The notes: generated from the sequence alone by a model not told the origin. A stretch of DNA of 64,000 nt from Halorarum halophilum (GCF_013401515.1 NZ_CP058529.1:2976001-3040000); one strand, 5' to 3'; shown: positions 31,831 to 45,460, numbered from the stretch's first letter. Translations and numbers: made by a program.

Positions 31831-32859
31831 ATGATGCCATTCGATAGCACGCGGCGTCGAACGTTTCTGAAGTCAGGTGCGGCCGTCGCGGGGGCCGGCC
31901 TGACCGGACTCGCAGGGTGTTCGAGCCTTCCGGGAGGCGGGACGACGCAACTCGGACTTGCGTTCACGGTCCCGGTCGAGAACCTCGGCTCCCTGTTCGC
32001 CATCCCTGAGCTCCAGGAGCAACTCACGAACCTCGGCGACGCGTACGAACTCAAGGTCACGCGGAACCAGAGCACGCCCGACTCGCTGAACGGCATGGCC
32101 GCCGGCGAGACCGATCTGGCGCTCCTCTCCTCGGTGAGCTACGCGTCGGCGGTCCAGCAGGAGGCAGTTCCGGGGAACATCTCCATGGTGGCGACGGACT
32201 TCTGGGACGCCCACCCCGAGTGGTACGGGTTCACCATCTTCTCCGGGAGCGACTCGGACGTCACCGAGCCCGCGAACCTCGAGGGCAAGACGATCGCCGT
32301 CAACAGCCTCGGGACCGGGGTCCACGCGGTCATCGTCAAGAAGCTCCAGCAGGAGGGCATCGACCCGGAGAACGGCGTCGACATGGTCGAACTCCCGTTC
32401 CCCACCATGACGTCCGCCATCAACGACGGGCGCATCGACGCGGCCATCTTCCCGGCCATCTTCGCCGTCTCGGCGCGCGGCGAGAACTTCACCGAGGTGT
32501 ACACCAGCCAGGACACGTGGGACCAGGAGTACCCGTTCGCGTACACGGCCGCCTCGAACGACTCCATCGACAACAAGTCCGACGCCATCGGCGCGTGGGG
32601 AGAGGACTTCGCCGAACTCGTCGACTACTGCTACGACAACCGCTCGGAGGTCGTCTCGCTCGCAGCCGAACACTTCGAGCTCCCGGAGCCGCTGGTCGAC
32701 GGCTTCTTCCTCACCAACCAGGACTACTTCCGCCAGGACATCAGGATCGACTTCGAGCGACTCCAGTTCGCGATGGACGAACTCGTCGACCTCGGCTTCA
32801 TCGAGCAGAGCTTCGACGTCCGCGAGTACGCCACCAACGAGTTCCTCCCGGAGAACTGA
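31831..32859 (+). CDS. ABC transporter substrate-binding lipoprotein (NMT1/SsuA-type)
   Basis: 342 residues. Tat signal RRRTFLK (8-14) and lipobox with Cys30 (LAGCSS) place it outside the cell, lipid-anchored. The periplasmic-binding fold of the NMT1/SsuA/TauA type is seen in LGLAFTVPVENLGSLFAI, MAAGETDLALLSSVSYA, KTIAVNSLGTGVHAVIVKKL and NDGRIDAAIFPAIFAVSA. Known members bind sulfonates, nitrate, pyrimidine precursors or aromatic acids; the ligand here is unknown. Its partner permeases and ATPase are probably those at 35.8-38.2 kb, on the other strand, with metabolic genes in between. Confidence 0.87.
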   Translation: MMPFDSTRRRTFLKSGAAVAGAGLTGLAGCSSLPGGGTTQLGLAFTVPVENLGSLFAIPELQEQLTNLGDAYELKVTRNQSTPDSLNGMAAGETDLALLSSVSYASAVQQEAVPGNISMVATDFWDAHPEWYGFTIFSGSDSDVTEPANLEGKTIAVNSLGTGVHAVIVKKLQQEGIDPENGVDMVELPFPTMTSAINDGRIDAAIFPAIFAVSARGENFTEVYTSQDTWDQEYPFAYTAASNDSIDNKSDAIGAWGEDFAELVDYCYDNRSEVVSLAAEHFELPEPLVDGFFLTNQDYFRQDIRIDFERLQFAMDELVDLGFIEQSFDVREYATNEFLPEN

Positions 32860-32982
32860 AGGGAGGGGACACGCCGTCGACCGCGATTTTTCACGCGACC
32901 CCTACGTTTCACGCCATCCGTCACCGCGAGCACGGGGTCCACGCTGGCCCGAAACCGCTGGAAGAGGGTGAAGCGACTTCGG

Positions 32983-33951
32983 CTACTCGATCCGTTCGAG
33001 GTCCGCTCTGACCGCCTCGTACGCCTCCGTCAGTTGCGACCCCTCCTCGGCCGACAGTTCCCACTCGTGGATCTCCGCGACCCCGTCGCCGTCCAGCGTC
33101 ACCGGGACGCCCAGCGCCACGTCCTCGAACCCGTACTCGCCCGCGAGGGGCGTGGACAGGCAGAACGGTTCCTCGTTCCCGCCGGCGGCCATCGACCGGA
33201 TCACGCGGGTGACGCCGGCGCTCGTCACCCACCGCGACGTCTCCCTCACCCCTCGGCGCTTCGCGATCTCGAAGGGGACGTCGCGCACGTACTCCCGGAC
33301 GTCGGCGCGGTCCGACTCCGGGACCTCCACGGGCTCGCCGTCGACGCGGACGCGGGAGAACACCGGGACGACGTTCTCCCCGTGCTCGCCCATCATGGGG
33401 CAGTGGACGGCGTTCCTGTGCACGCCGAGCCCCTCGGCGATGGCGTCGGCCGCGCGGGCCGTCTCGGAGAGCGAGTAGCCCATGAACTTCTCCCGTGGCC
33501 AGCCCAGCAGTGACCGGAACCGGTAGGTGAGCCGGTCGATGGGGTTGGTCACGACGAGCAGCGGGGTCGGGTCGAGTCCGCGCAGGTCCGCCGCGACGTC
33601 GTCGACGATGGCGAGGTTCCGCTCGAGTTCCGCCTCGCGGGCGCCGCGGTCGGTCGCGTCCTCCGGCTGGGGGGCGGCCGCGTTGAACACGAGGAGGTCG
33701 GGATCCAGGTCCGGCAGGTCCTCGGGGGTGGCCGACCGGACCTCGCCGAACCCGTCGGGGCCGACCCTCGACCGGCCGTCGGGCGCGTTGGCGAAGTGGT
33801 AGCCCGCGTGGGAGATGTCCGTGGCGTGGGCCCAGGCGGCCTCCTCGTCGATGTCCACGAGGCTGACGTCGATGGAGGGGGCCAGCCCGGCGACGGTGTA
33901 GGCGACGGTCGAGCCGATGGTGCTCGCGCCGCCGATGATCGCAACGTGCAT
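32983..33951 (-). CDS. Divergent malate/lactate dehydrogenase-like enzyme
   Basis: 322 residues. N-terminal NAD motif VAIIGGASTIGSTVAY, NPIDRLTYRF, the catalytic His in GEHGENVVPVFS, and a substrate Arg in SETAR place it in the L-lactate/malate dehydrogenase family. It differs where specificity is set: the mobile loop reads AAPQPEDATDR instead of the malate loop G-x-P-R-x-x-G-x-T-R, and the Asp of the usual L-D-x-x-R is Glu. It is therefore probably an L-2-hydroxyacid dehydrogenase with another substrate. It lies between the binding-protein gene and the Rieske/amidohydrolase pair. Confidence 0.8.
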   Translation of the reverse strand: MHVAIIGGASTIGSTVAYTVAGLAPSIDVSLVDIDEEAAWAHATDISHAGYHFANAPDGRSRVGPDGFGEVRSATPEDLPDLDPDLLVFNAAAPQPEDATDRGAREAELERNLAIVDDVAADLRGLDPTPLLVVTNPIDRLTYRFRSLLGWPREKFMGYSLSETARAADAIAEGLGVHRNAVHCPMMGEHGENVVPVFSRVRVDGEPVEVPESDRADVREYVRDVPFEIAKRRGVRETSRWVTSAGVTRVIRSMAAGGNEEPFCLSTPLAGEYGFEDVALGVPVTLDGDGVAEIHEWELSAEEGSQLTEAYEAVRADLERIE

Positions 33952-34115
33952 ACTCCCCCCTCACCGGTCTGCCCCAAGTAGATTGTCCCCGGTGGGTCGA
34001 GCGCCGTCGGTCCACGAGCCGGCGTGTTCGGCGTCGAGGCTCACGGCGCCGGGGAACGTCGAAAACCGAACCGTCGCGGGCGGCGACGGCTCACAGCCGA
34101 CGGTCCGCGTTACTG

Positions 34116-34493
34116 CTACTTCCCGTCGTCGACGTAGACGACGCCGTCCTCGACGACCACGTCGTACATCGGGAGGACGATGCTGTCGTCGCCGATGTGC
34201 GTCCCGGTCTCGAGGTCGAACGACCAGCCGTGCCACGGACAGGAGACGATGCAGTCGTCGCTGTAGTGCTGGTCGATGCGCTCGCCCGGTCCGGTGAACT
34301 CGCCGACGAGCTTGCGCTGGACCTTCCCCTCGCAGACCGGCCCGCCGTCGTGGGGGCACTGGTTCCGCATGGCGTAGAACTCCCCCTCCGCCTTGATGAC
34401 GCCGACCTCGGCCCGGCCGATCTGCACGATCCGGTGGTCGCCGTCCGCGAACTCGTCGGCCGGCCCGACCTTGACGAGCGAGTCGTCGCTCAC
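34116..34493 (-). CDS. Rieske [2Fe-2S] ferredoxin-like protein with insertion
   Basis: 125 residues from a GTG start (VSDDSLVKVG) that overlaps the amidohydrolase stop by 4 bases. The cluster ligands are C46-x-H48 (CPH) and C85-x2-H88 (CPWH), followed by GWSFDLETG, so a Rieske fold is clear. Between the two ligand boxes are 36 residues, whereas Rieske ferredoxins usually have about 15-20, so an insertion of roughly 18 residues with an acidic character is present. Soluble, single domain: an electron donor rather than an oxygenase. Probably works with the coupled amidohydrolase. Confidence 0.88.
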   Translation of the reverse strand: MSDDSLVKVGPADEFADGDHRIVQIGRAEVGVIKAEGEFYAMRNQCPHDGGPVCEGKVQRKLVGEFTGPGERIDQHYSDDCIVSCPWHGWSFDLETGTHIGDDSIVLPMYDVVVEDGVVYVDDGK

Positions 34494-35578
34494 AGGCCGA
34501 ACACCTCCTCGGCGTTGCCCGCGAGGATCGCCCGGCGGTCGTCGTCGTCGAGCATCGGGAGATCGTTGATGGTCGAGGGGCTGTCGAAGTCCCAGTGGGG
34601 GTAGTCCGAGGCGTACAGCAGCCGGTCGGTCCCGATCATGTCGAAGCAGAGTTCGAGCAGGTCGTTGCGCGCGGAGATCTCCAGCGGCTGGGTGCCGAAG
34701 TAGAAGTCCGTGATGTACTCGCCGGGGCGCGTGTCGAGCAGCGGCGCCTCCTCGGGTCGCTTCAGGTACTCCTCGTCGAGGCGGCTGACGAGCCCCGGGA
34801 TGTACGTCACGCCCGACTCCATGAACACGATGTCGAGGTCGGGGAACTTCTCCGGGATGCCCTGGCAGGCGACGCTGACGATCTGGGACATGTTCGACTC
34901 CAGGAATCCGAGCGTGTGCGTCTCGATCATCTCCTGGTAGCCGGCCCGGACGTACTCGTCGAGGCCCGACCCGCCGGTGTGGTACACGACCGGGTAGTCC
35001 ATCTGCTCGCAACGCTCGTAGATCGGGTCGTACTTCCGGTTCCCCAGCGGCGGGCTCGCCCCCGCGGTGATGAAGCAGGCGCCGACCCACGCCTCCTCGT
35101 CCTCGACGCGTTCGAGCACCTCCAGCGAGGCGTCGACGTCGCCGTACGGGATCGGCGCGAGCCCGTAGACGCCCTCGTCGGGGTCGAGCACCTCCTCCAT
35201 CATGTACTCGATGTACCCCTTCGTGAACGCCTGCACGCGCTCGTCGTCGGCGTTGACGCCGCCCATCGCGAGGATGAGGTGGGAGATCTGCAGCGACACG
35301 TCGATGTCGAGGAACTCCATCCCCTCGGTGACGCGCTCCGGGTCCTCCGGCTCGTCGGGGTAGTTCGAGTGCTCGCGGGTGACCTTCCCGTAGTTCTGCC
35401 TGTCGCCCGTGGACGTGGGGAAGAAGGAACTGAGGTTCTGTTTCACGCCCGCGTCGTCCCAGTTGCTCTCCACGTACTTCGTGTGCCACGGCTCGGGCAT
35501 GTACTCCGCGACCTCCTTGAACGAGTCCTGGTAGTGCCAGTCGCAGTCGATGACCCGTTCCTCGGTGACGTCGATCAT
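34490..35578 (-). CDS. Amidohydrolase-2 family metal-dependent enzyme
   Basis: 362 residues from MIDVTEERVIDCDWHYQ. It belongs to the PF04909 group whose N-terminal metal motif is D-C-D-x-H (here D11-C-D-W-H15), with an internal His in VVYHTGGSG and the C-terminal ASDYPHWDFDSP. Members decarboxylate or hydrolyse aromatic or carboxylic compounds; the exact reaction is unknown. Soil bacteria often cluster such genes with NMT1-type ABC importers (general knowledge). The gene overlaps the Rieske protein and lies next to the ABC importer, which supports a catabolic role. Upstream arginine-rich codons are excluded. Confidence 0.85.
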   Translation of the reverse strand: MIDVTEERVIDCDWHYQDSFKEVAEYMPEPWHTKYVESNWDDAGVKQNLSSFFPTSTGDRQNYGKVTREHSNYPDEPEDPERVTEGMEFLDIDVSLQISHLILAMGGVNADDERVQAFTKGYIEYMMEEVLDPDEGVYGLAPIPYGDVDASLEVLERVEDEEAWVGACFITAGASPPLGNRKYDPIYERCEQMDYPVVYHTGGSGLDEYVRAGYQEMIETHTLGFLESNMSQIVSVACQGIPEKFPDLDIVFMESGVTYIPGLVSRLDEEYLKRPEEAPLLDTRPGEYITDFYFGTQPLEISARNDLLELCFDMIGTDRLLYASDYPHWDFDSPSTINDLPMLDDDDRRAILAGNAEEVFGL

Positions 35579-35842
35579 CGCGCGTACCACCCGCCGTCGG
35601 AGTCGGGGCGTCCCTCCCGCATCCGTGGAGGGAACTCTACTGCCACGCAGCTGTTCGTGGGGGTCGCTGGCATACAGCGAGAACATGGCTAGACGACCAT
35701 TTAGGTTTTCGCCTCGGCGCCACCGGCGTCGCGTCGAGACGACGTGAGCGACCGAAGGGGAAGGATCGAGACGGTGTGAACGAGTGGGGGAAGCGAACGG
35801 GGACTGCGGCCGGACAGGGCCGGCAGGACGGTCCCACCCCGC

Positions 35843-36622
35843 TTACGTCCAGTGGAGGAGTCGGCCGCGGGCGAAGCGGAGGATGCGGTCGAGGCCGATA
35901 CCGACGAGCATGATGGCGATGATGGCGGCGTACACCTGGGTCGACTCGAACGAGCGGACGCCCTCGATCTCCAGGGCTCCCAGCCCGCCGCCGCCGGCGA
36001 CCATCTCGAAGACGAAGGTGATGATGAGCGAGAGGGGCATGGCGATCTGGAGGCCGGTCAGGATGCCCGGCGCCGCCGCCGGCAGGATCACCCGGCGGAG
36101 GAGCCGCCCGTTGCCCGTCCCCATCATCCGGGCAGACCAGACGAGGTTCTGCTCGACCTGTCGCGTGCTGTCGCGGGCGTTGACCGCGACCGGCCAGAAC
36201 GTCCCGACCGCGACCATGATGATCTTCGAGACGTCGCCGATGCCGAACCAGAGCATGAACACCGGGATGAGCGAGATGATCGGCACCGGGTAACCGATCT
36301 TGATGATCGGGTCGAAGAACCAGTTCACGGCGGCGTTCCGCGCGCAGAGGATGCCGACGACGATGCCCAGGACCGACGCGATCGCCAGGCCGACGAGCGC
36401 CCGCCTGAGCGTCAGGTAGGCATTGTACAGCATCTCGCCGGACACCGTCAGCTCGTAGAACCGGAGCAGGATGTCCGAGAGCGGCGGCAGGAAGTAGTAG
36501 TGGATGAGCCCGAACTGGGCGACGAGCTCCCAGAGGACGAGAACGATGACGAGCGAGTAGATCGACTTGCCGACCGAGACGGCGGCGGACAGGTCGACCC
36601 GTCGGTCTGCGGTTACGTCCAT
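35843..36622 (-). CDS. ABC transporter permease (nitrate/taurine type), second
   Basis: 259 residues with about six hydrophobic segments and the BPD_transp_1 fold; the coupling loop EAA-like motif is seen as LVWSARMMGTGNGRLLRRVILPAAAPGIL. Its start overlaps the end of the other permease by 10 bases. Belongs to the importer group of SsuC/TauC, paired with an NMT1-type binding protein. The downstream member of three consecutive minus-strand transporter genes. Confidence 0.9.
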   Translation of the reverse strand: MDVTADRRVDLSAAVSVGKSIYSLVIVLVLWELVAQFGLIHYYFLPPLSDILLRFYELTVSGEMLYNAYLTLRRALVGLAIASVLGIVVGILCARNAAVNWFFDPIIKIGYPVPIISLIPVFMLWFGIGDVSKIIMVAVGTFWPVAVNARDSTRQVEQNLVWSARMMGTGNGRLLRRVILPAAAPGILTGLQIAMPLSLIITFVFEMVAGGGGLGALEIEGVRSFESTQVYAAIIAIMLVGIGLDRILRFARGRLLHWT

Positions 36623-37404
36623 GTCAACACCCGTTCCCTGGCCTCCTCGAACCCCCTCACCGCGACGAAGGCCATCGCCGAGATGATGACGATGTTCGCG
36701 AACATCGTCGGGTAGTTGCCGATCTGGCCGGACGTCAGGATGAGGTAGCCGATCCCCTCGTTGGAGGCGATGAGCTCCGCGCTCACGAGCGCGATGAAGG
36801 CGATGGGGACGGCCTGCCGGACCCCGGTCATGATCTCGGGGATCGTCGCCGGGAAGATGACCTTCCAGAGGAGCCGCCGTCCGTCCGTTCCCATCATCTT
36901 CGCCGACCACACGAGGTTCCGGTCGACGTCGCTCGCCGCGTTGTAGCTGTTGAGGACGATGGGGAGCAGGCAGGCGAGGAAGACGATGAGGATCGCGGTG
37001 CTCGTGCCCACGCCCAGCCAGAGGATCGCGAGTGGAACGAGCGCCGTCTTCGGGATCGGGTACGTCATCGAGAGGAAGACGTCGAAGAAGTTCTCGACCG
37101 CGTCCGAGCGCGCCATCCCGATGCCGAGGAGGACGCCGATGGCGATGCTCAGCCCCAGGCCGACCGCGATCCGGAACAGCGAGACGAACAGGTGCGAGTA
37201 CACCTCGCCGGTGACGAGCAGCTCCCAGATCTCGCCGGAGACGGTCACGGGCGACGGGAGGATCGCCTCGGCGACGACCGTCCCGCTCGCCAGTTCCCAC
37301 AGGAGCGCCACGATGACGAGCGGGACCCAGTCGAAGACCGCCCGGGCGGGACTCCGGAGCCGTTCCGGGACCGCTTCGGACCCCTGAAAGGTTGCCCCCC
37401 CCAC
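36613..37404 (-). CDS. ABC transporter permease (nitrate/taurine type), first
   Basis: 263 residues with about six hydrophobic segments and the EAA-like loop MGTDGRRLLWKVIFPATIPEIM, the ATPase-contact site. Paralogous to the following permease; together they would make a heterodimeric channel. The start is just 2 bases after the ATPase stop, and the stop overlaps the next permease start by 10 bases, so all three are one operon. Confidence 0.9.
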   Translation of the reverse strand: MGGATFQGSEAVPERLRSPARAVFDWVPLVIVALLWELASGTVVAEAILPSPVTVSGEIWELLVTGEVYSHLFVSLFRIAVGLGLSIAIGVLLGIGMARSDAVENFFDVFLSMTYPIPKTALVPLAILWLGVGTSTAILIVFLACLLPIVLNSYNAASDVDRNLVWSAKMMGTDGRRLLWKVIFPATIPEIMTGVRQAVPIAFIALVSAELIASNEGIGYLILTSGQIGNYPTMFANIVIISAMAFVAVRGFEEARERVLTWT

Positions 37405-37406
37405 GG

Positions 37407-38189
37407 CTACGGTCGCACCTCCGTCCTCGTCTCCTCGCGGAGCGACTTCCAGACGGCGTTCTTCGTCGTCGTGAACTCGTCGGACGTGATGATCTCCTCG
37501 CGGGGGAGCGACCGGTCGAGGTCGACCTCGGTGACCATCTTCTTCGTCCCGGGGTGGCGGGTCATGATCATCACGCGTTCGGAGAGGTAGACGGCCTCCT
37601 CCACGTCGTGGGTGATGAACACGACCGTCTTCTCGAGGTCGCCCCAGATGTCGATCAGCTGGTCCTGGAGCGACTCCCTGAGCGGCTGGTCGAGCGCGCC
37701 GAACGGCTCGTCCATGAGCAGGATCTTCGGCTCGTACGCGAGCGTCCGGGCCAGCGCGACGCGCTGTTTCATCCCCCCGGAGAGCTCCTTCGGGTACTTG
37801 TCCTCGAACCCGTCGAGGTCGACCATGTCGATGTACCGCTGGGCCGTGGCCTGCCGCTCGTCCTTGGGGACGCCGCCCTCCTCGAGCCCGTAGGTCACGT
37901 TCTCGAACACCGTCCGCCAGGGGAACAGCGCGTAGTCCTGGAACACCACGCCCCGGTCCGTCCCCGGGCCGTCGATGGGGGTGCCGTCGACGGAGATCGT
38001 CCCCGTCGACGCGTCCAGGAAGCCGGCGATCAGGTACAACAGCGTGCTCTTGCCACAGCCGCTCGGCCCGACGACGCTGACGAACTCGCCGCCGTCGATC
38101 TCGAACGAGAGGTCCTCGATGGCCTTCGTTCGCTCGGCCCCCTCGCCGTAGAACTTCTCCAGGTTCGAGATGGTGACGTTCCCGTCCAT
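37407..38189 (-). CDS. ABC transporter ATP-binding protein (SsuB/TauB type)
   Basis: 260 residues from MDGNVTISNL. Walker A GPSGCGKST (41-49), Q-loop VVFQDYALFPWRTVFENV, signature LSGGMKQRVALARTLAYEP, Walker B ILLMDEPFGALD and the H-loop VVFITHDVEEAVYLS are intact. It belongs to the nitrate/sulfonate/taurine ATPase group. First gene of the minus-strand transporter operon. The ATG is overlapped by the stop of a short upstream frame (TGATG). The reading extends far upstream without stop, but with low-quality arginine/serine sequence, so the internal ATG is used. Confidence 0.92.
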   Translation of the reverse strand: MDGNVTISNLEKFYGEGAERTKAIEDLSFEIDGGEFVSVVGPSGCGKSTLLYLIAGFLDASTGTISVDGTPIDGPGTDRGVVFQDYALFPWRTVFENVTYGLEEGGVPKDERQATAQRYIDMVDLDGFEDKYPKELSGGMKQRVALARTLAYEPKILLMDEPFGALDQPLRESLQDQLIDIWGDLEKTVVFITHDVEEAVYLSERVMIMTRHPGTKKMVTEVDLDRSLPREEIITSDEFTTTKNAVWKSLREETRTEVRP

Positions 38190-38272
38190 CACGGCCTCCC
38201 CGTAGTTCGCAGTCGGTCGGGGTGCTGGTGTGAGGCGGCCGTCCTGCCGCGGCGTGGCTCGTGTTCTGTCAT
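38189..38272 (-). CDS. Possible 27-residue leader ORF before the ABC ATPase
   Basis: An ATG at 38272 opens a short frame beginning MTEHEPRRGRTAASHQ whose TGA stop shares its last base with the ATPase start codon (TGATG). The peptide is His/Arg-rich, without resemblance to a known family. The exact stop/start overlap suggests translational coupling or attenuation rather than chance, but length and composition alone do not prove it is translated. Confidence 0.25.
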   Translation of the reverse strand: MTEHEPRRGRTAASHQHPDRLRTTGRP

Positions 38273-39250
38273 TGGATTGCGTTGGGCTCTCGTCGTTGTG
38301 CGCGTCTCTTCGGGCGGCGACGGACGTCCCGACGAAGCCGGGGTCCGCCAGCGGACGGGTCGGCGCCGCGCGCGGCGTCCGCGTCGAAACGGGACGCCGC
38401 TGGACGACCCGAAACTCGGCCGTTCCGACCGCTACTGCTACCGCGTGACACGGTGTCGACACGGTTTCGATCGTACAAAAACCTTCCCTCCGGACGGGGC
38501 CCCGGGGACGCGACAGGGGCCCCGTCCTTCGCGCTAAGTGTACGTCTGCAGTGATCTTTTCGTCGACCCCGACCGTCGACTGTGGCGGCGTGGACGGCGG
38601 TCGGCTCCTCGTGTCCGGCTTCTCCGAACCGATTTCTGCCATCTCTCCCCCTACTTCCTCGAGGTCGTTCCATACCACAAAGACATGATAGTATTGAATA
38701 CGAGACTGGGGAATGATTGGAATCGGTCAACGCGGGTCGGCGCACGCGAATGTAAACGATAGCCATCCCCAGTAACACGACTCCGTTGTTGGAATCGGAC
38801 TGAACCCGGTACGAGGCGTCGTACTCGCTCTTCTCGAGATTGGGGTGGACTGAGGATACGGTTCGAGACGATTGGGTCCGGATCGACGGGTTATGGTGAG
38901 GATCACCGCTCTCAACTAGCTGAGGGGTGTAGGATCGGCTTGGTTTAGCGATACTTCGTGGGAATACAGCAGCTCGATAGGCGAGAAATTAGTAATCTAA
39001 ATTCTATATACTAGAAATTGATATTCTCGGTGGGTGCGTCCCGTGAGCTACGCGAATCTGGCCGGCCGTCGAGTCGGGATCGTTCCCCGTCACCGATTTG
39101 GTTGGCCTCCCCGCCCACCCGATCACCTAGCTTGACCGCCACCGACTTCGACGTCGTCGGAACGCCCGGAGGGATCACACGTCGACCGTTCGGAGGTGAC
39201 CCGCGAGAGCGGGAGTAACCCCTTTCGGCCCTCGCTACGAGTTCCCGAAC
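38190..39250. other. About 1 kb intergenic region
   Basis: No convincing gene. The part near 38190-38280 holds a possible short leader frame for the ABC ATPase. Between about 38690 and 39040 the sequence becomes AT-rich, with an imperfect palindrome (AATTCTATATACTAGAAATT) near 39000-39020. Translated frames across it are arginine- or serine-rich and show no domain. Confidence 0.5.
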
Positions 39251-39988
39251 ATGGAGGACATCGAAGGCGACGCGGTCGTCGTCACGGGAGCGAGTTCCGG
39301 AATCGGCGGGGCCACCGCGCGCGTTCTCGCGGCGGACGGGGCGAACCTCGTGCTCGCCGCCCGTCGCGAGGACCGGCTCGAGGAACTGGCCGACGAACTC
39401 GAATCCGAGTACGACGTTCAGGCGCTTCCGGTGTCGACCGACGTCACGGAGCGCGAGCAGGTGGACGACCTCGTCGAGGCCACGGTCGGGGAGTTCGGCC
39501 GCCTCGACGGGCTGGTGAACAACGCCGGCGTCGGGCTCGGCGGCGAGGTGGCGGAGCTGACGGACGAGGAGTACCACACGATGATGGACGTGAACGTCGA
39601 CGGCGCGTTCTACGCCACCCGCGCGGCGCTCCCGCATCTCCGCGAGACCGAGGGGACGGTGGTGTTCATCGGCAGTTTCGCCGGGCAGTACCCCCGGCCC
39701 GGCAACCCGGTGTACGCCGCGACCAAGTGGTACGTTCGCGGGTTCGCACACAGCCTCGCGGGCCAGGTCGGCGACGACGGGATTGCGGTGTCCGTCGTCA
39801 ACCCGACCGAGGTGCGGACCGAGTTCGGCTCCGAGCAGGGCGACGCGTTCGAGGAGCAGTACGGCCCCGACGAGGCGACCGAACCCGAGGCCATCGCTGA
39901 CGCGGTGCGGTTCTCGCTCGGACAGGCCGGGACCGACGCCGTGAACGAACTGGACCTGTACCGCCGGGACAAGTTCTCGCACTTCTGA
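39251..39988 (+). CDS. Short-chain dehydrogenase/reductase
   Basis: 245 residues, classical SDR. Cofactor motif TGASSGIG (12-19), NNAG (90-93), catalytic Ser142 and Y155-x3-K159 (in PVYAATKW) are complete; the ARRED sequence after strand 2 suggests NADP preference. It oxidises or reduces an alcohol/ketone whose identity is unknown. The C-terminus ends YRRDKFSHF. It is separated by about 130 bases from the following kinase gene, so a shared operon is possible but not evident. Confidence 0.9.
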   Translation: MEDIEGDAVVVTGASSGIGGATARVLAADGANLVLAARREDRLEELADELESEYDVQALPVSTDVTEREQVDDLVEATVGEFGRLDGLVNNAGVGLGGEVAELTDEEYHTMMDVNVDGAFYATRAALPHLRETEGTVVFIGSFAGQYPRPGNPVYAATKWYVRGFAHSLAGQVGDDGIAVSVVNPTEVRTEFGSEQGDAFEEQYGPDEATEPEAIADAVRFSLGQAGTDAVNELDLYRRDKFSHF

Positions 39989-40124: not shown

Positions 40125-41153
40125 ATGAGGTTGGACGCCGACGCGGCCGTCGAGTACCTCGAAGCTCGGGGTCGAGTCCCCGAGGGTGCCCGACCGGTCG
40201 CCGAACCGCTGGGCGGGGGCGTCTCGAACGACGTGTTCCGCGTCAGCTGGGACGACGACGCGGTCGTCCTCAAACAGCCGCTCCCGGACCTCGCGGTGGC
40301 GGACGATTGGCCGGCGGACGTCGGCCGCGTCCACAACGAGGCCGCGGCCGCCCGGGTGTACGCCGCCGTCCTCGACGACCGCGGGATGGACGGCGTCGCG
40401 GTCCCGGCCGTCCGCTTCGAGGACCACGAGGAACACGTCATCGGCATCTCCTCGGCCCCGGAGTCGGCGCGGATGTGGAAGTCGGACCTGCTCGACGGAA
40501 CCGTCGACCCGGGGATCGCCGCGACGGTCGGCGAGTTCCTCGCGGCGGCCCACGACTACGCCGCGGACGACGGGGACCTCGAGGAAGCGTTCGGGAACTA
40601 CGTCCCGTTCGAGCAACTGCGCCTGGACCCGTACCACCGGACCGTCGCGGAGCGCCACCCGGACCTCGCGCCGGCGATCGAGCGCGAGATCGAGCGCATC
40701 AGGTCGACGCGCTCGACGCTGGTCCACGGCGACTACAGCCCGAAGAACGTGCTCGTCGACGACACGGACAGGCGACCCCACCTCTGGCTGCTCGACTTCG
40801 AGGTGGCACACTGGGGCGACCCGGCGTTCGACGTCGCGTTCATGCTCAACCACCTGTTCATCAAGTCGGTCTACCTCGCCGACCGGCGGGACGAGTACGT
40901 CTCGGCCGCCGAGGCGTTCTGGGAGGCGTACCGCGACACCGTCGAGACGACCCCCATCGACGAAACCGACGTGGTGCGGGAACTCGGCGTCCTCATGCTC
41001 GCCCGCGTCGACGGCAAGTCGCCGGTCGAGTACGTCGAGCAGGTGGAGACGAAGGAGACGCTTCGGGCGCTCGCGAGGCGGATCCTGACCGGGGATGTCG
41101 GGACGGTCGCGGAGTTGGCCTCGATCGTCCGCGAGGAGGTGGACGGCCGGTGA
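40125..41153 (+). CDS. APH-fold small-molecule kinase (phosphotransferase)
   Basis: 342 residues. The aminoglycoside-phosphotransferase/choline-kinase fold is seen from K50 (VVLKQ), the Brenner motif HGDYSPKN (201-208, catalytic D203 and N208) and the metal-binding DFE (224-226) in WLLDFEVAHWGDPAFD. The sequence around HGDYSPKN resembles sugar kinases of the 5-methylthioribose kinase type, but identity is not proven. The stop overlaps the start of an enolase-like gene by 4 bases (GTGA), so the kinase product is probably the substrate of that enzyme. Confidence 0.85.
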   Translation: MRLDADAAVEYLEARGRVPEGARPVAEPLGGGVSNDVFRVSWDDDAVVLKQPLPDLAVADDWPADVGRVHNEAAAARVYAAVLDDRGMDGVAVPAVRFEDHEEHVIGISSAPESARMWKSDLLDGTVDPGIAATVGEFLAAAHDYAADDGDLEEAFGNYVPFEQLRLDPYHRTVAERHPDLAPAIEREIERIRSTRSTLVHGDYSPKNVLVDDTDRRPHLWLLDFEVAHWGDPAFDVAFMLNHLFIKSVYLADRRDEYVSAAEAFWEAYRDTVETTPIDETDVVRELGVLMLARVDGKSPVEYVEQVETKETLRALARRILTGDVGTVAELASIVREEVDGR

Positions 41154-42421
41154 GCGAGATCACCGACGTCACGGCCTGGGAAGTGCTCGACTCGCGGGGG
41201 AACCCGACGGTTCGCGCCCGGGTCGACGCCAAGTCGGGTTCGGGCACCTTCACCGTCCCGGCTGGTGCGAGTACCGGCGAGCACGAGGTCGTCGAACGGC
41301 GCGACGGGGGCGGCCGATACGGCGGGCAGGGCGTGACCGACGCCGTCGCGGCGGCGAACGACGAACTCGCCGAGGTCGTCGTCGGCAGGGACGCGACCGA
41401 CCAGGAGGCGATCGACGCGGCGATGGTGGCCTACGACGGAACCGACGCCCTCGCCGCCGTGGGGGCCAACGCGGTGCTCGCGGTATCCGGCGCGGTCGCC
41501 CACGCCGCGAGTTCCGTCGCCGGGAAGTCCCTTCACCGGTACATCGCCGACAGTCGGGGATCCGAGGGGTCGATGCCCACGCCGATGGTCAACGTCGTCA
41601 GCGGCGGCCTGCACGCGGAGGGTGGCATCGAGATCCAGGACGTGCTCGCGGTCCCCCGGGGGGCGACCACCTACTCCGAGGCGCTCGAGACGGCGTGGGA
41701 CGTCCGGCGCGCGGTGCGCTCGCTCGTCGTCGAGGCCGGCCACCGCCCGCTCGTCGCCGACGAGGGCGGGTTCGCCCCGCCGATGGCGGGGATTGGGGAG
41801 GCGTTCGAACTCGTGGTCGACGGCATCGAGCGGGCGGGGTACGTCCCCGGCGACGACGTCGCGCTGGCGGTCGACGTCGCCGCCTCCCACTTCTACGACG
41901 CCGACGCGGACACGTACCGGCTGGAGAGCGTCGGCCGGACGCTCGACCGCGGGAAATTGATCTCGCTGGTCGTCGAGTGGACCGAGTCGTACCCCCTGAT
42001 CTCGATCGAGGACCCCCTCGCGGAGGACGACTGGCGGGGATGGGCGCGGCTCGCCGACCGGCTCCCCGCCGACGTCCAGTTGCTCGGCGACGACCTGCTC
42101 GTGACGAACCGCGACCGGCTCGCTCGCGCCACCGAGGACGACGTCGTCTCGGCGGTGCTCGTCAAGCCGAACCAGGCGGGGACGATGACTCGGGCGATGG
42201 ACGTCGTCGCCGACGCGAAGGCGGCGGACGTCGCCCCGGTCGTGTCGGCGCGGTCGGGCGAGACGTGCGACACGACCATCGCCGACCTGGCCGTCGGGCT
42301 CGACGCCGGCCAGATCAAGATCGGCTCGCTGGCGCGCTCCGAGCGGCTGGCGAAGTACAACCGGCTCCTCGAGATCGAACGGACGACCGACCGCCGGCTG
42401 CGAAACCCGTTCGCCGACTGA
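41150..42421 (+). CDS. Enolase-like protein with altered active-site residues
   Basis: 423 residues from a GTG start. The enolase fold is complete: DSRGNPT, GASTGEHE, GGLHA (H155, yeast H159), DEGG (E205, yeast E211), metal ligands D242, E287 and D314/D315, K339 in KPNQAGT (yeast K345) and K390 (yeast K396). Changes at normally conserved sites are: LQEFM-like motif reads IQDVL (D164 for yeast E168), SHRSGET reads SARSGET (A367 for yeast H373), and ASEF reads ASHF. Haloarchaeal glycolytic enolase normally sits with rpoN/rpoK/rpsB. This is a paralogue probably acting on another phosphorylated hydroxyacid, coupled to the upstream kinase. Confidence 0.88.
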   Translation: MSEITDVTAWEVLDSRGNPTVRARVDAKSGSGTFTVPAGASTGEHEVVERRDGGGRYGGQGVTDAVAAANDELAEVVVGRDATDQEAIDAAMVAYDGTDALAAVGANAVLAVSGAVAHAASSVAGKSLHRYIADSRGSEGSMPTPMVNVVSGGLHAEGGIEIQDVLAVPRGATTYSEALETAWDVRRAVRSLVVEAGHRPLVADEGGFAPPMAGIGEAFELVVDGIERAGYVPGDDVALAVDVAASHFYDADADTYRLESVGRTLDRGKLISLVVEWTESYPLISIEDPLAEDDWRGWARLADRLPADVQLLGDDLLVTNRDRLARATEDDVVSAVLVKPNQAGTMTRAMDVVADAKAADVAPVVSARSGETCDTTIADLAVGLDAGQIKIGSLARSERLAKYNRLLEIERTTDRRLRNPFAD

Positions 42422-42455: not shown

Positions 42456-43628
42456 TCAGGCGTCGACGCCCAGCGCCTGATTGGCGACGAGCAGGACGAC
42501 AAGCAGTCCCATGAGCCCCGCGACGAGCCCGTAGGCCGGGAGCCAGCCCGCCCGGTCGGCGATCGTCCCCGTCACGCCGCTGCCGAGCGAGCTGACGAGC
42601 AGCACGACCGTCCGGACGAGCCCGAACCCGGTACCGCGCTCGTCCTCGGCGAGGACGTCCATGAACCGGGAGTTGAGGACGCCCGGCCAGCTCAGCCCGA
42701 TACCGACGAGGAGCGTCCCGGCAACGACCGCCGCGGTTCCCTCCGCGAACAGGAAGAGGACGTACCCCGCGATGCCGGCGAGCAGCGACGCCCCGAAGGT
42801 GGCGTCCCGGCCGGTCGCGTCCGACGCCCAGCCCAGCGCGGGCGCGCCGCCGATGGTGAGCGCGAACACGGCACCGAACACGAGGCTCGCGCGGCCCGTC
42901 GGGACGTCGGCGTACTCGACGAGGAACGTCGGGAAGAACGAGGCGAACGCCTGCCAGGTGAAGAAGGCGACCATCGCGAGGACGGTCGTGAACAGGACGC
43001 TCGGCCGCGCGAGGAGCGCGAGCAGCCGACGGACGTCGAGCTGCTCGGTCAGCGACTGGCCGGGATCGGCCGGCGGCGTTCGGGGCGCGCGCCACGCGAA
43101 GAGGACGAGGACGACCACGGCGACGGTCGCGGGGACGAGCGGGCCGGCGCGCCAGCCGAACCTGGTCGCCGCGTACGCGCTTGCGACGGGGGCGACCAGC
43201 CCGGCGGACGACGCACCGATCTCGTGGATGCCGAGCGCCCGCCCGGTGTCCTCGAACTGCGCGGTGAGGAAGGCGGTCCCGGCGGTGAAGTACAGCCCCG
43301 CGGCCGCCCCGAGCGTCACCGCGAAGGCGGCGAACAGCGGGAACGTCGGGGCGGCCGCGAGCACCGTGCTCGCGACGCCGGTCGCGCCCATCGCCAGCAG
43401 CACGACCCGGCGCTCGCCGTACCGGTCCGCGAGGACGCCGCCGGGGAACTGGAAGAGGGCGTAGGCGGCCCACATCCCCGTCAGAGCGACGCCGACCTCG
43501 CTCTTCGTGACGACGAACGCGTCCATGATGTCGGGGACGAGCGGGCTCGGGGCCAGCCGAGCGACCATCGTCACGAAGAACGCCGCGGTCGCGACGCCGA
43601 GCAGTTCCCTGCCGCTGCGCTGGGCCAT
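42456..43628 (-). CDS. MFS transporter
   Basis: 390 residues with 12 hydrophobic segments in two halves. Motif A, FPGGVLADRYGERRVVLLAM (about 62-81), is well preserved, and GWASDATGRDATFGASLLAG is its counterpart in the second half. The family exports or imports small molecules with a proton or other ion; substrate is unknown. The ATG at 43628 (MAQRSGREL) is used as upstream reading is low quality. Convergent with the enolase-like gene. Confidence 0.87.
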   Translation of the reverse strand: MAQRSGRELLGVATAAFFVTMVARLAPSPLVPDIMDAFVVTKSEVGVALTGMWAAYALFQFPGGVLADRYGERRVVLLAMGATGVASTVLAAAPTFPLFAAFAVTLGAAAGLYFTAGTAFLTAQFEDTGRALGIHEIGASSAGLVAPVASAYAATRFGWRAGPLVPATVAVVVLVLFAWRAPRTPPADPGQSLTEQLDVRRLLALLARPSVLFTTVLAMVAFFTWQAFASFFPTFLVEYADVPTGRASLVFGAVFALTIGGAPALGWASDATGRDATFGASLLAGIAGYVLFLFAEGTAAVVAGTLLVGIGLSWPGVLNSRFMDVLAEDERGTGFGLVRTVVLLVSSLGSGVTGTIADRAGWLPAYGLVAGLMGLLVVLLVANQALGVDA

Positions 43629-43840
43629 CGGTCCCCGGTATCGTCCCGGCCGAATTCCTCTTCGGTTCCCGGCAAGCCGACACGTCGTCCGGGCGACGAG
43701 AGGCGAGCCGATTTCGGGCCGTGAGGACGGCGAGCGACGACGACCCGTCGGTTCACGGTCGGCTTCGGTCCTCCGAGTGGCCCCCACCGGACCGTAATCC
43801 GGTAACTAACGAATAGGGAGTAGGTCCCTCGACACGACGA

Positions 43841-44653: not shown

Positions 44654-44800
44654 GGAGACGGTAACGCCCCCGTCGCGGGTCGACGAACCGCGGCCGGGGC
44701 GGCGGTCGCGACCGCTCGAACGGTCGCGCTCTCCGCTGCCCAGAGGAACGTTAACGTATGTCGCAGCCGTACCTGCGTGGGTGCCCCGGAGGAGTTCACG

Positions 44801-45460
44801 ATGAAGCGGGACGTGCACGAGTACGAAGCGGAGGACATCACGGTGAGCTACGACGTCGAGCGGTGCATCCACGCCAGGGAGTGCGTTCGCGGGTTACCCT
44901 CGGTGTTCGACCCCGACCGGAGACCCTGGATCCAGCCGGAGGGCGCCGACCCCGACGAACTGGCGGAGGTCGTCACGCGGTGTCCGACCGGCGCGCTGCA
45001 CTTCGACCGGTCGGACGGCGGGAGCCCGGAGTCGGTCCCGGAGGAGAACACGGTGTCCGTCGCCCCGGACGGCCCGCTGTACGTCCGCGGCGACGTCGAA
45101 CTCGTCTCCGAGGACGACGAGGTGCTCCTCGAGGACACCCGCGTGGCGCTCTGTCGGTGCGGCGCCTCCGAGAACAAACCCCTCTGTGACAACAGTCACC
45201 GGTCCGTCGAGTTCTCGGCGGCCGGGACCGTGACCGACGGGTCGACGGACGACGGATCCCCGCCCGAGGGCGTACTGCGCGTGACGCCCACGGACGACGG
45301 CCCGTTCCACCTGGAGGGCGAGTTCGAACTGGTGGGCGAGGAGGACGGCTCGACCGCCCGGGACGACGACGCCTGGCTGTGTCGCTGTGGCGCCTCGGGG
45401 GACAAACCGTACTGCGACGGGACCCACGAGGAGATCGGCTTCACGAGCGAGGACGACTGA
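44801..45460 (+). CDS. Iron-sulfur protein: Fer4_19 domain plus two CDGSH domains
   Basis: 219 residues. Residues 1-75 form a mono-cluster (4Fe-4S) domain with Cys22, Cys28 and Cys61 (RCPTGALHF). Two CDGSH zinc-finger-type [2Fe-2S] domains follow: C118, C120, C129, H133 (CRCGASENKPLCDNSH) and C194, C196, C205, H209 (CRCGASGDKPYCDGTH). The three clusters in one protein suggest electron transfer or cluster delivery. The start at MKRDVHEYEA follows a Shine-Dalgarno-like GGAGG about 10 bases upstream. Family function unsettled. Confidence 0.88.
   Translation: MKRDVHEYEAEDITVSYDVERCIHARECVRGLPSVFDPDRRPWIQPEGADPDELAEVVTRCPTGALHFDRSDGGSPESVPEENTVSVAPDGPLYVRGDVELVSEDDEVLLEDTRVALCRCGASENKPLCDNSHRSVEFSAAGTVTDGSTDDGSPPEGVLRVTPTDDGPFHLEGEFELVGEEDGSTARDDDAWLCRCGASGDKPYCDGTHEEIGFTSEDD

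Follow-up and report, generated by a model that had tools for sequence, protein, structure and literature searches.

In the chromosome of the haloarchaeon Halorarum halophilum, a gene for a small-molecule kinase overlaps a gene for an altered enolase. We believe, with a probability of roughly 55%, that the two enzymes form a module in which a 2,3-dihydroxy acid is phosphorylated at its 2-hydroxyl and then dehydrated in the manner of enolase, probably starting from a substrate other than 2-phosphoglycerate (2-PG). The coupling of the two genes, the single clade of the altered enolases, their fixed signature and their presence alongside a classical enolase are supported by the comparisons described here, and from the residues and neighbours we infer the substrate and the product. 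This points to an undescribed two-step pathway that may be concealed by the label "glycolytic enolase".

The window, by which we mean the whole 64,000-nucleotide stretch that was analyzed (G000:C1:2976001-3040000), contains the pair and several genes that may be related to it (Table 1). GC3 is 94% in the kinase ORF and likewise in the enolase-like ORF, so each frame is coding. The original prediction had placed the pair at 40125-42421 with a 4-base overlap, and the sequence and an ORF check agree. It had also listed H155, E205, D242, E287, K339 and K390 as retained enolase residues, all of which are present, and had read D164 and A367 as replacements of yeast E168 and H373, which is correct by alignment. 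That the overlap is a chance meeting of unrelated genes is ruled out by the conservation of the pair across phyla.

Table 1. Features of the window (positions counted from its first letter) and, in the last four rows, members of a second divergent haloarchaeal enolase lineage.
Feature	Position	Strand	Remarks
LDH/MDH-family 2-hydroxyacid dehydrogenase, possibly related	32983..33951	-	6 kb from the pair
SDR oxidoreductase, possible third member	39251..39988	+	directly upstream, 136-bp gap
APH-fold small-molecule kinase, methylthioribose-kinase-like, 342 aa	40125..41153	+	Pfam PF01636 E=1.5e-20
4-base GTGA overlap	41150..41153	+	enolase GTG start within kinase stop; from the sequence
Enolase-like protein, 423 aa, GTG start, E168D/H373A clade	41150..42421	+	AF2 pLDDT 94
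Codon GAC, D164 (yeast E168, touches the 2-PG hydroxyl)	41639..41641	+	alignment; PMC4667285 for the equivalent Glu166
A203 codon (yeast G209; acid E211 two residues further on)	41756..41758	+	alignment
E205 codon (yeast E211, general acid), kept	41762..41764	+	alignment
K339 codon (yeast K345, proton-abstracting base), kept	42164..42166	+	alignment
Codon GCG, A367 (yeast H373)	42248..42250	+	alignment
I391 codon (yeast T397, adjoins K396)	42320..42322	+	alignment
MFS transporter, candidate transporter	42456..43787	-	convergent with the enolase gene; 48% identical to that of congener L047
H159L/H373E divergent enolase	L046:7099-8364	-	
H159L/H373E divergent enolase	L047:7494-8771	+	
H159L/H373E divergent enolase	L048:7670-8941	-	
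Further H159L/H373E clade members	G220:C19:158381, G233:C1:2360632, G240:C7:2957942, G135, G134, G342		

A separate classical eno (403 aa, with the SHRSGET motif, G000:C1:855263) is found in the same genome in an rps9-rpoN-rpoK-eno-rps2 cluster, the ribosomal and RNA polymerase setting where the original prediction expected a second enolase. This rules out the window gene as the sole or a relocated glycolytic eno. The window protein is 43% identical to this classical eno (234 bits) and scores higher, at 379 bits, against bacterial enolases of known structure. In an unrooted tree of 92 sequences, built by a quick search with SH-aLRT as the sole support, a single branch (SH-aLRT 100) splits off all 43 altered enolases together. 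Classical enolases fall outside this clade, whether they are bacterial, archaeal or from the same genomes, and the placement of the window protein outside the glycolytic clade is the outcome that had been predicted. The halobacterial altered enolases group with those of Actinomycetota and one Bacillota sequence (support 95), which suggests that they originated in bacteria and were acquired by transfer.

The Pfam matches of the window protein are to Enolase_N (E=1.8e-40, 138 bits) and Enolase_C (E=2.2e-83, 280 bits), and with 31.7 bits for MR_MLE_C these profiles do not place it in the mandelate racemase/muconate lactonizing group. NCBIfam TIGR01060, the equivalog model for phosphopyruvate hydratase, takes the protein at 461.5 bits against a cut-off of 300, so automatic annotation will say phosphopyruvate hydratase; this cut-off fails to tell altered from glycolytic enolases. 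With glycolytic enolase (EC 4.2.1.11; TIGR01060, PF00113/PF03952) the window protein shares the two-domain fold, the Mg ligands D246/E295/D320, K345, E211 and the R374/S375 phosphate site (yeast numbering), and its predicted mode of working is enolase-like. It differs in carrying E168D, G209A, H373A and T397V/I, in its own clade, in its kinase operon, and in being additional to a classical eno. By the two criteria tested, signature and clade, the enolase-like protein is thus placed outside the glycolytic enolase family.

Just four alignable positions split 66 altered from 77 classical enolases: E168 becomes D, G209 becomes A, H373 becomes A, and T397 becomes V or I. The E168 position is D in 66/66 readable relatives and E in 77/77 classical enolases, while the H373 position is A in 65/65 readable relatives (V and T once each) and H in 77/77 classical enolases; the change from G209 to A is seen in 95% of the altered enolases. 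A fifth position that was flagged falls in the unalignable C-terminal tail and lies outside the signature, and four pair-adjacent enolases are cut by contig ends, so that their signatures are readable partly or not at all. These counts bear out the original claim that E168 and H373 are invariant or nearly so in glycolytic enolase, and they show that D164 and A367 are kept in homologues, a check that had been suggested. They also show what that reading overlooked, since A203 and I391 belong to the signature as well, and what it overvalued, since ASHF in place of ASEF varies within the altered-enolase subfamily and does not distinguish it. The signature is absent from the five best PDB matches of the enolase-like protein in the alignments of those five.

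All four signature positions are active-site residues or their neighbours, and across the 66 aligned sequences the altered enolases keep K345, E211, H159, R374, S375, K396 and the metal ligands. The parts that are predicted to grip the 2-phosphate and carboxylate and to take the C2 proton are unchanged. Solved enolases show the 2-PG hydroxyl in contact with the two glutamates that correspond to E168 and E211 (PMC4667285), and because the substitutions cluster there, the C3 side of the substrate site appears to be the part that was rebuilt. Loss of H373, the shorter residue at E168, and V or I at T397 suggest more room and less polar surroundings for a C3 substituent, an argument that we draw from sequence and published contacts.

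The kinase has a Brenner-type motif, HGDYSPKN (H201-N208), and a DFE motif (D224-E226). Its catalytic motifs are intact, and G32, K50, H201, G202, D203, N208 and D224 are invariant among 30 relatives. The best PDB matches of its AF2 model (pLDDT 96) are methylthioribose kinases (TMq 0.73-0.83, 16-18% identity), giving it an MTRK-type fold, and among solved structures it is most closely related to 5-methylthioribose kinases and 4-hydroxytryptamine kinase. It shares an APH-like fold and a related N-lobe motif with MtnK (TIGR01767; PDB 2OLC, 2PYW) and PsiK (8ZIC, 9ETO), but it is only about 16-19% identical to them, does not pass the 5-methylthioribose kinase profile TIGR01767 (51.3 versus 275 bits), and has its own C-terminal motif, LMLARVDGKSPVEY. 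MTR kinase phosphorylates the anomeric hydroxyl of its sugar, so the kinase family alone does not predict a hydroxy-acid substrate. The Pfam matches of the window kinase are APH (PF01636), EcKL and TCAD9 only, and glycerate kinase classes I (PF02595) and II (MOFRL) were not matched. The glycerate kinases known so far form three structurally unrelated classes (PMC2063504).

Kinase loci were collected from one genome per species by scanning for two conserved peptides, DV[DGE]RVHNE and LVHGDYSP, a search that divergent relatives may escape. A kinase relative is encoded at 255 loci, and the best 80 of the 255 were kept and examined. These best 80 are mostly bacterial and come from Halobacteria, Chloroflexota, Acidobacteriota, Planctomycetota, Bacillota, Actinomycetota, Spirochaetota, Bacteroidota, Verrucomicrobiota, Armatimonadota and others. 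An enolase homologue lies directly downstream in 59/80, almost always on the same strand, and the gap between the two genes is within about 215 bp in 52 of the 55 pairs measured, with some overlapping. Among the 21 kinase loci without an adjacent enolase, 17 belong to genomes that encode an altered enolase elsewhere (L068, L074, L075, L078 and thirteen more), and the other four are draft metagenome bins. We had considered a kinase-only lineage (Dehalococcoidia, Natronomonas aquatica), but the altered enolase is encoded elsewhere in those genomes, which rules it out.

The kinase is found in 6/242 Halobacteria genomes, and an altered enolase (>500 bits) is found in exactly those six (Fisher p=4e-12, ignoring kinship). 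Pairwise distances between kinases correlate with those between enolases (r=0.83, n=55 loci, 0/2000 permutations), a correlation to which shared ancestry contributes. Functional coupling of the kinase and the altered enolase is well supported by this comparative genomics: as originally predicted, the two go together, being conserved as a pair across many phyla, co-occurring even when unlinked, and diverging in a correlated way. We found no description of this pairing in the open-access literature, and its novelty is provisional.

In Dehalococcoidia/SAR202-type genomes, where the kinase is unlinked from the enolase (L074, L075, L076, L078, L080, L086, L122), its neighbours include a luciferase-like (LLM) gene and a lumazine-synthase-like one, and the altered enolase, where seen, has a cupin, carboxymuconolactone-decarboxylase-like and rsmG context (L166-L168). 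A link to F420 and 2-phospholactate, raised by the LLM-family gene, was set aside, as Firmicutes and Spirochaetes carry the pair. One genome (G173) has a second, seemingly broken kinase copy in two fragments about 1.8 kb apart (L049:5811-8314), with an intact pair elsewhere.

The genes around the pair vary. SDR genes occur in 17 of the best 80 of the 255 kinase loci, in varying places, and we rejected the idea that the module regularly includes the SDR, ABC transporter, amidohydrolase or MFS genes, since they are missing beside most haloarchaeal relatives. In the window, the region upstream of the pair (31831-38678, mostly on the minus strand) encodes an NMT1-like binding protein, the LDH/MDH-family dehydrogenase, an amidohydrolase_2 protein and taurine/nitrate-type ABC components. 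The LDH/MDH-family dehydrogenase is 48% identical to one found beside the GckA-type kinase and enolase pair of L047. Downstream, 44777-45460 encodes a small protein with a divergent 4Fe-4S domain (Fer4_19) and two CDGSH iron-binding stretches.

Of 31 genomes, 8 have a D-2-hydroxyacid dehydrogenase gene no more than 10 kb from the altered enolase (0.98 expected, P=9e-6), and 5 have one no more than 3 kb away (0.29 expected, P=1.4e-5); two of the positive genomes are congeneric Nocardia, and Chloroflexota, Bacillota and Spirochaetota supply the others. Modest enrichment near the altered enolase is also seen for HpcH/HpaI aldolases (3 versus 0.6 expected, P=0.02). Firmicutes and Spirochaetes encode, together with the pair, a URO-D-family protein and a CdaR/PucR-type regulator; close by are genes for GntP, lactate permease, tripartite transporters, RraA, a GarR-like dehydrogenase and a lactate-racemase homologue. 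The loci with the URO-D-family (PF01208) gene are L085, L089, L092, L126, L129, L131, L137 and L139 (Bacillota, Spirochaetota).

In Natronomonas aquatica, the kinase and the altered enolase share a cluster of about 30 kb with two 2-hydroxyacid dehydrogenases, two HpcH aldolases, a TRAP transporter and several sugar-acid dehydratases, and FAH, dioxovalerate dehydrogenase and MR/MLE dehydratases are also among its products; most of these were assigned by eye from translations, without profiles. Near its altered enolase is a split UxaA-family gene (L146:15468-16879), with a 102 aa SAF-type part and a 392 aa part, that resembles sulfolactate sulfo-lyase SuyAB or an altronate-type dehydratase. We do not read a pathway from this cluster alone, because its enzymes, spread over about 30 kb, are too numerous to favour any one substrate. 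Overall, the gene contexts speak for small hydroxy acids and sugar acids but differ between phyla, and because of this variation no single pathway can be read from them.

We propose that the methylthioribose-kinase-like protein would use ATP to phosphorylate a 2,3-dihydroxy carboxylic acid at its 2-hydroxyl. Going by the residues that it retains, the enolase-like protein would then bind the 2-phospho acid with two Mg2+ ions, K339 would abstract the C2 proton, and E205 would drive loss of the C3 hydroxyl, so that water is lost across C2-C3 and a phosphoenol 2-keto acid is formed. Given a C3 pocket that appears larger and less polar (E168D, H373A, G209A, T397V/I), the preferred substrate probably has an extra group at C3, and a candidate, in place of 2-PG, would be a 2,3-dihydroxybutyrate or a tetronate in its 2-phospho form. 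The 2-hydroxyacid dehydrogenases and HpcH/RraA aldolases encoded nearby could make the hydroxy acid or consume the keto acid.

A new substrate for the pair is likely in our judgment, although the neighbours count against it: hydroxypyruvate/tartronate-semialdehyde-type reductases, HpcH aldolases, CdaR and GntP typify plain-glycerate pathways. The closest rival is accordingly a glycerate-to-PEP module, in which the enolase-like protein would be an isozyme with the ordinary function (2-PG to PEP), tuned by its active-site changes, and the kinase would represent a fourth class of D-glycerate 2-kinase, one with an APH fold. We consider this unlikely, while giving it serious weight, as such neighbours are typical of glycerate-forming routes and a second divergent haloarchaeal enolase lineage (H159L, H373E) adjoins a gene of the MOFRL glycerate 2-kinase family. 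However, a PF00113 search of 34 carrier genomes found at least two enolases in 30, the remaining four being draft MAGs, and all 25 genomes tested (two of them controls without the window-type kinase) encode a glycerate kinase of the MOFRL and/or GlxK type. A plain glycerate-to-PEP role would duplicate two steps for which such genomes already have enzymes. It would also leave unexplained why E168 and H373, invariant in the 77 classical sequences, are never kept in the readable paired enolases.

The remaining rivals are far less probable. The enolase-like enzyme, acting after a sulfolactate kinase, might expel another C3 group; loss of sulfite from 2-phospho-3-sulfolactate, for instance, would yield PEP. 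The altered residues do encircle the leaving group, the altered enolase of Natronomonas aquatica has the split UxaA/SuyAB-like pair and a D-2-hydroxyacid dehydrogenase in its vicinity, and a taurine/sulfonate-like ABC transporter is encoded near the window pair. Yet no sulfonate gene turns up repeatedly in different phyla, the UxaA family more often supplies dehydratases for sugar acids, and most loci have sugar-acid or hydroxyacid neighbours, which makes this reading improbable. Slightly more doubtful still is a variant of methylthioribose or deoxyribose salvage, with the kinase as a sugar 1-kinase and the enolase-like protein replacing a later dehydratase/enolase step: methylthioribose kinases are the best fold and profile matches, but at the low identity and score given above, no MtnA-type isomerase was recognized near the pair in the neighbourhoods inspected, and the enolase-like protein retains carboxylate, phosphate and two-metal residues that suit a 2-phospho carboxylate. 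We give least credence to a catalytically dead or moonlighting enolase-like protein with the kinase as the working part. Two residues invariant in classical enolases are gone, but essentially all readable members retain the base, the acid and the residues that bind metal and phosphate, and changes this specific and fixed do not look like decay.

The two-metal subgroup of the enolases has long been represented by 2-phosphoglycerate hydratase. We see about an even chance that the module adds a second natural reaction to this subgroup, in which a kinase of a new family and the altered enolase would together make a new type of enol phosphate from a C3-substituted 2,3-dihydroxy acid, as part of a catabolic route in ten or more phyla. 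Enolase homologues have been recruited to another reaction before, as in the carboxyphosphonoenolpyruvate synthase of phosphinothricin biosynthesis, which is biosynthetic and is not known to have a kinase partner of the kind described here. Annotation, phylogeny and mechanistic work all use enolase as a reference enzyme, and since the altered enolases exceed the equivalog cut-off, databases likely list them as glycolytic enolase. The four-residue signature offers a simple rule for re-annotating them. If their function does differ, a widespread catabolic step has been overlooked, and the few fixed changes would be an unusually clean natural experiment on enolase specificity.

The MOFRL kinase family is known to make 2-PG, and a glycerate 2-kinase followed by enolase operates in branched Entner-Doudoroff, serine-cycle and glucarate pathways (PMC2063504). 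These systems (MOFRL/GckA class II or GlxK class I, with enolase) resemble the window pair in that a 2-hydroxyl kinase feeds an enolase-type dehydration among similar neighbours, but the window kinase is from an unrelated family and the known glycerate kinases are co-present with it. The second haloarchaeal lineage is likewise similar in having a divergent enolase adjoining a kinase gene, with MOFRL adjacency seen wherever the context was examined (L046-L048, G220, G233, G240). It differs from the window pair in forming an independent clade on the archaeal side of the tree, in carrying H159L and H373E while keeping E168, and in its different kinase family. In the congener L047, the MOFRL and divergent enolase genes are flanked by AtuA/DUF1446-like genes (identified by eye) and an MFS transporter (L047:10218-13310).
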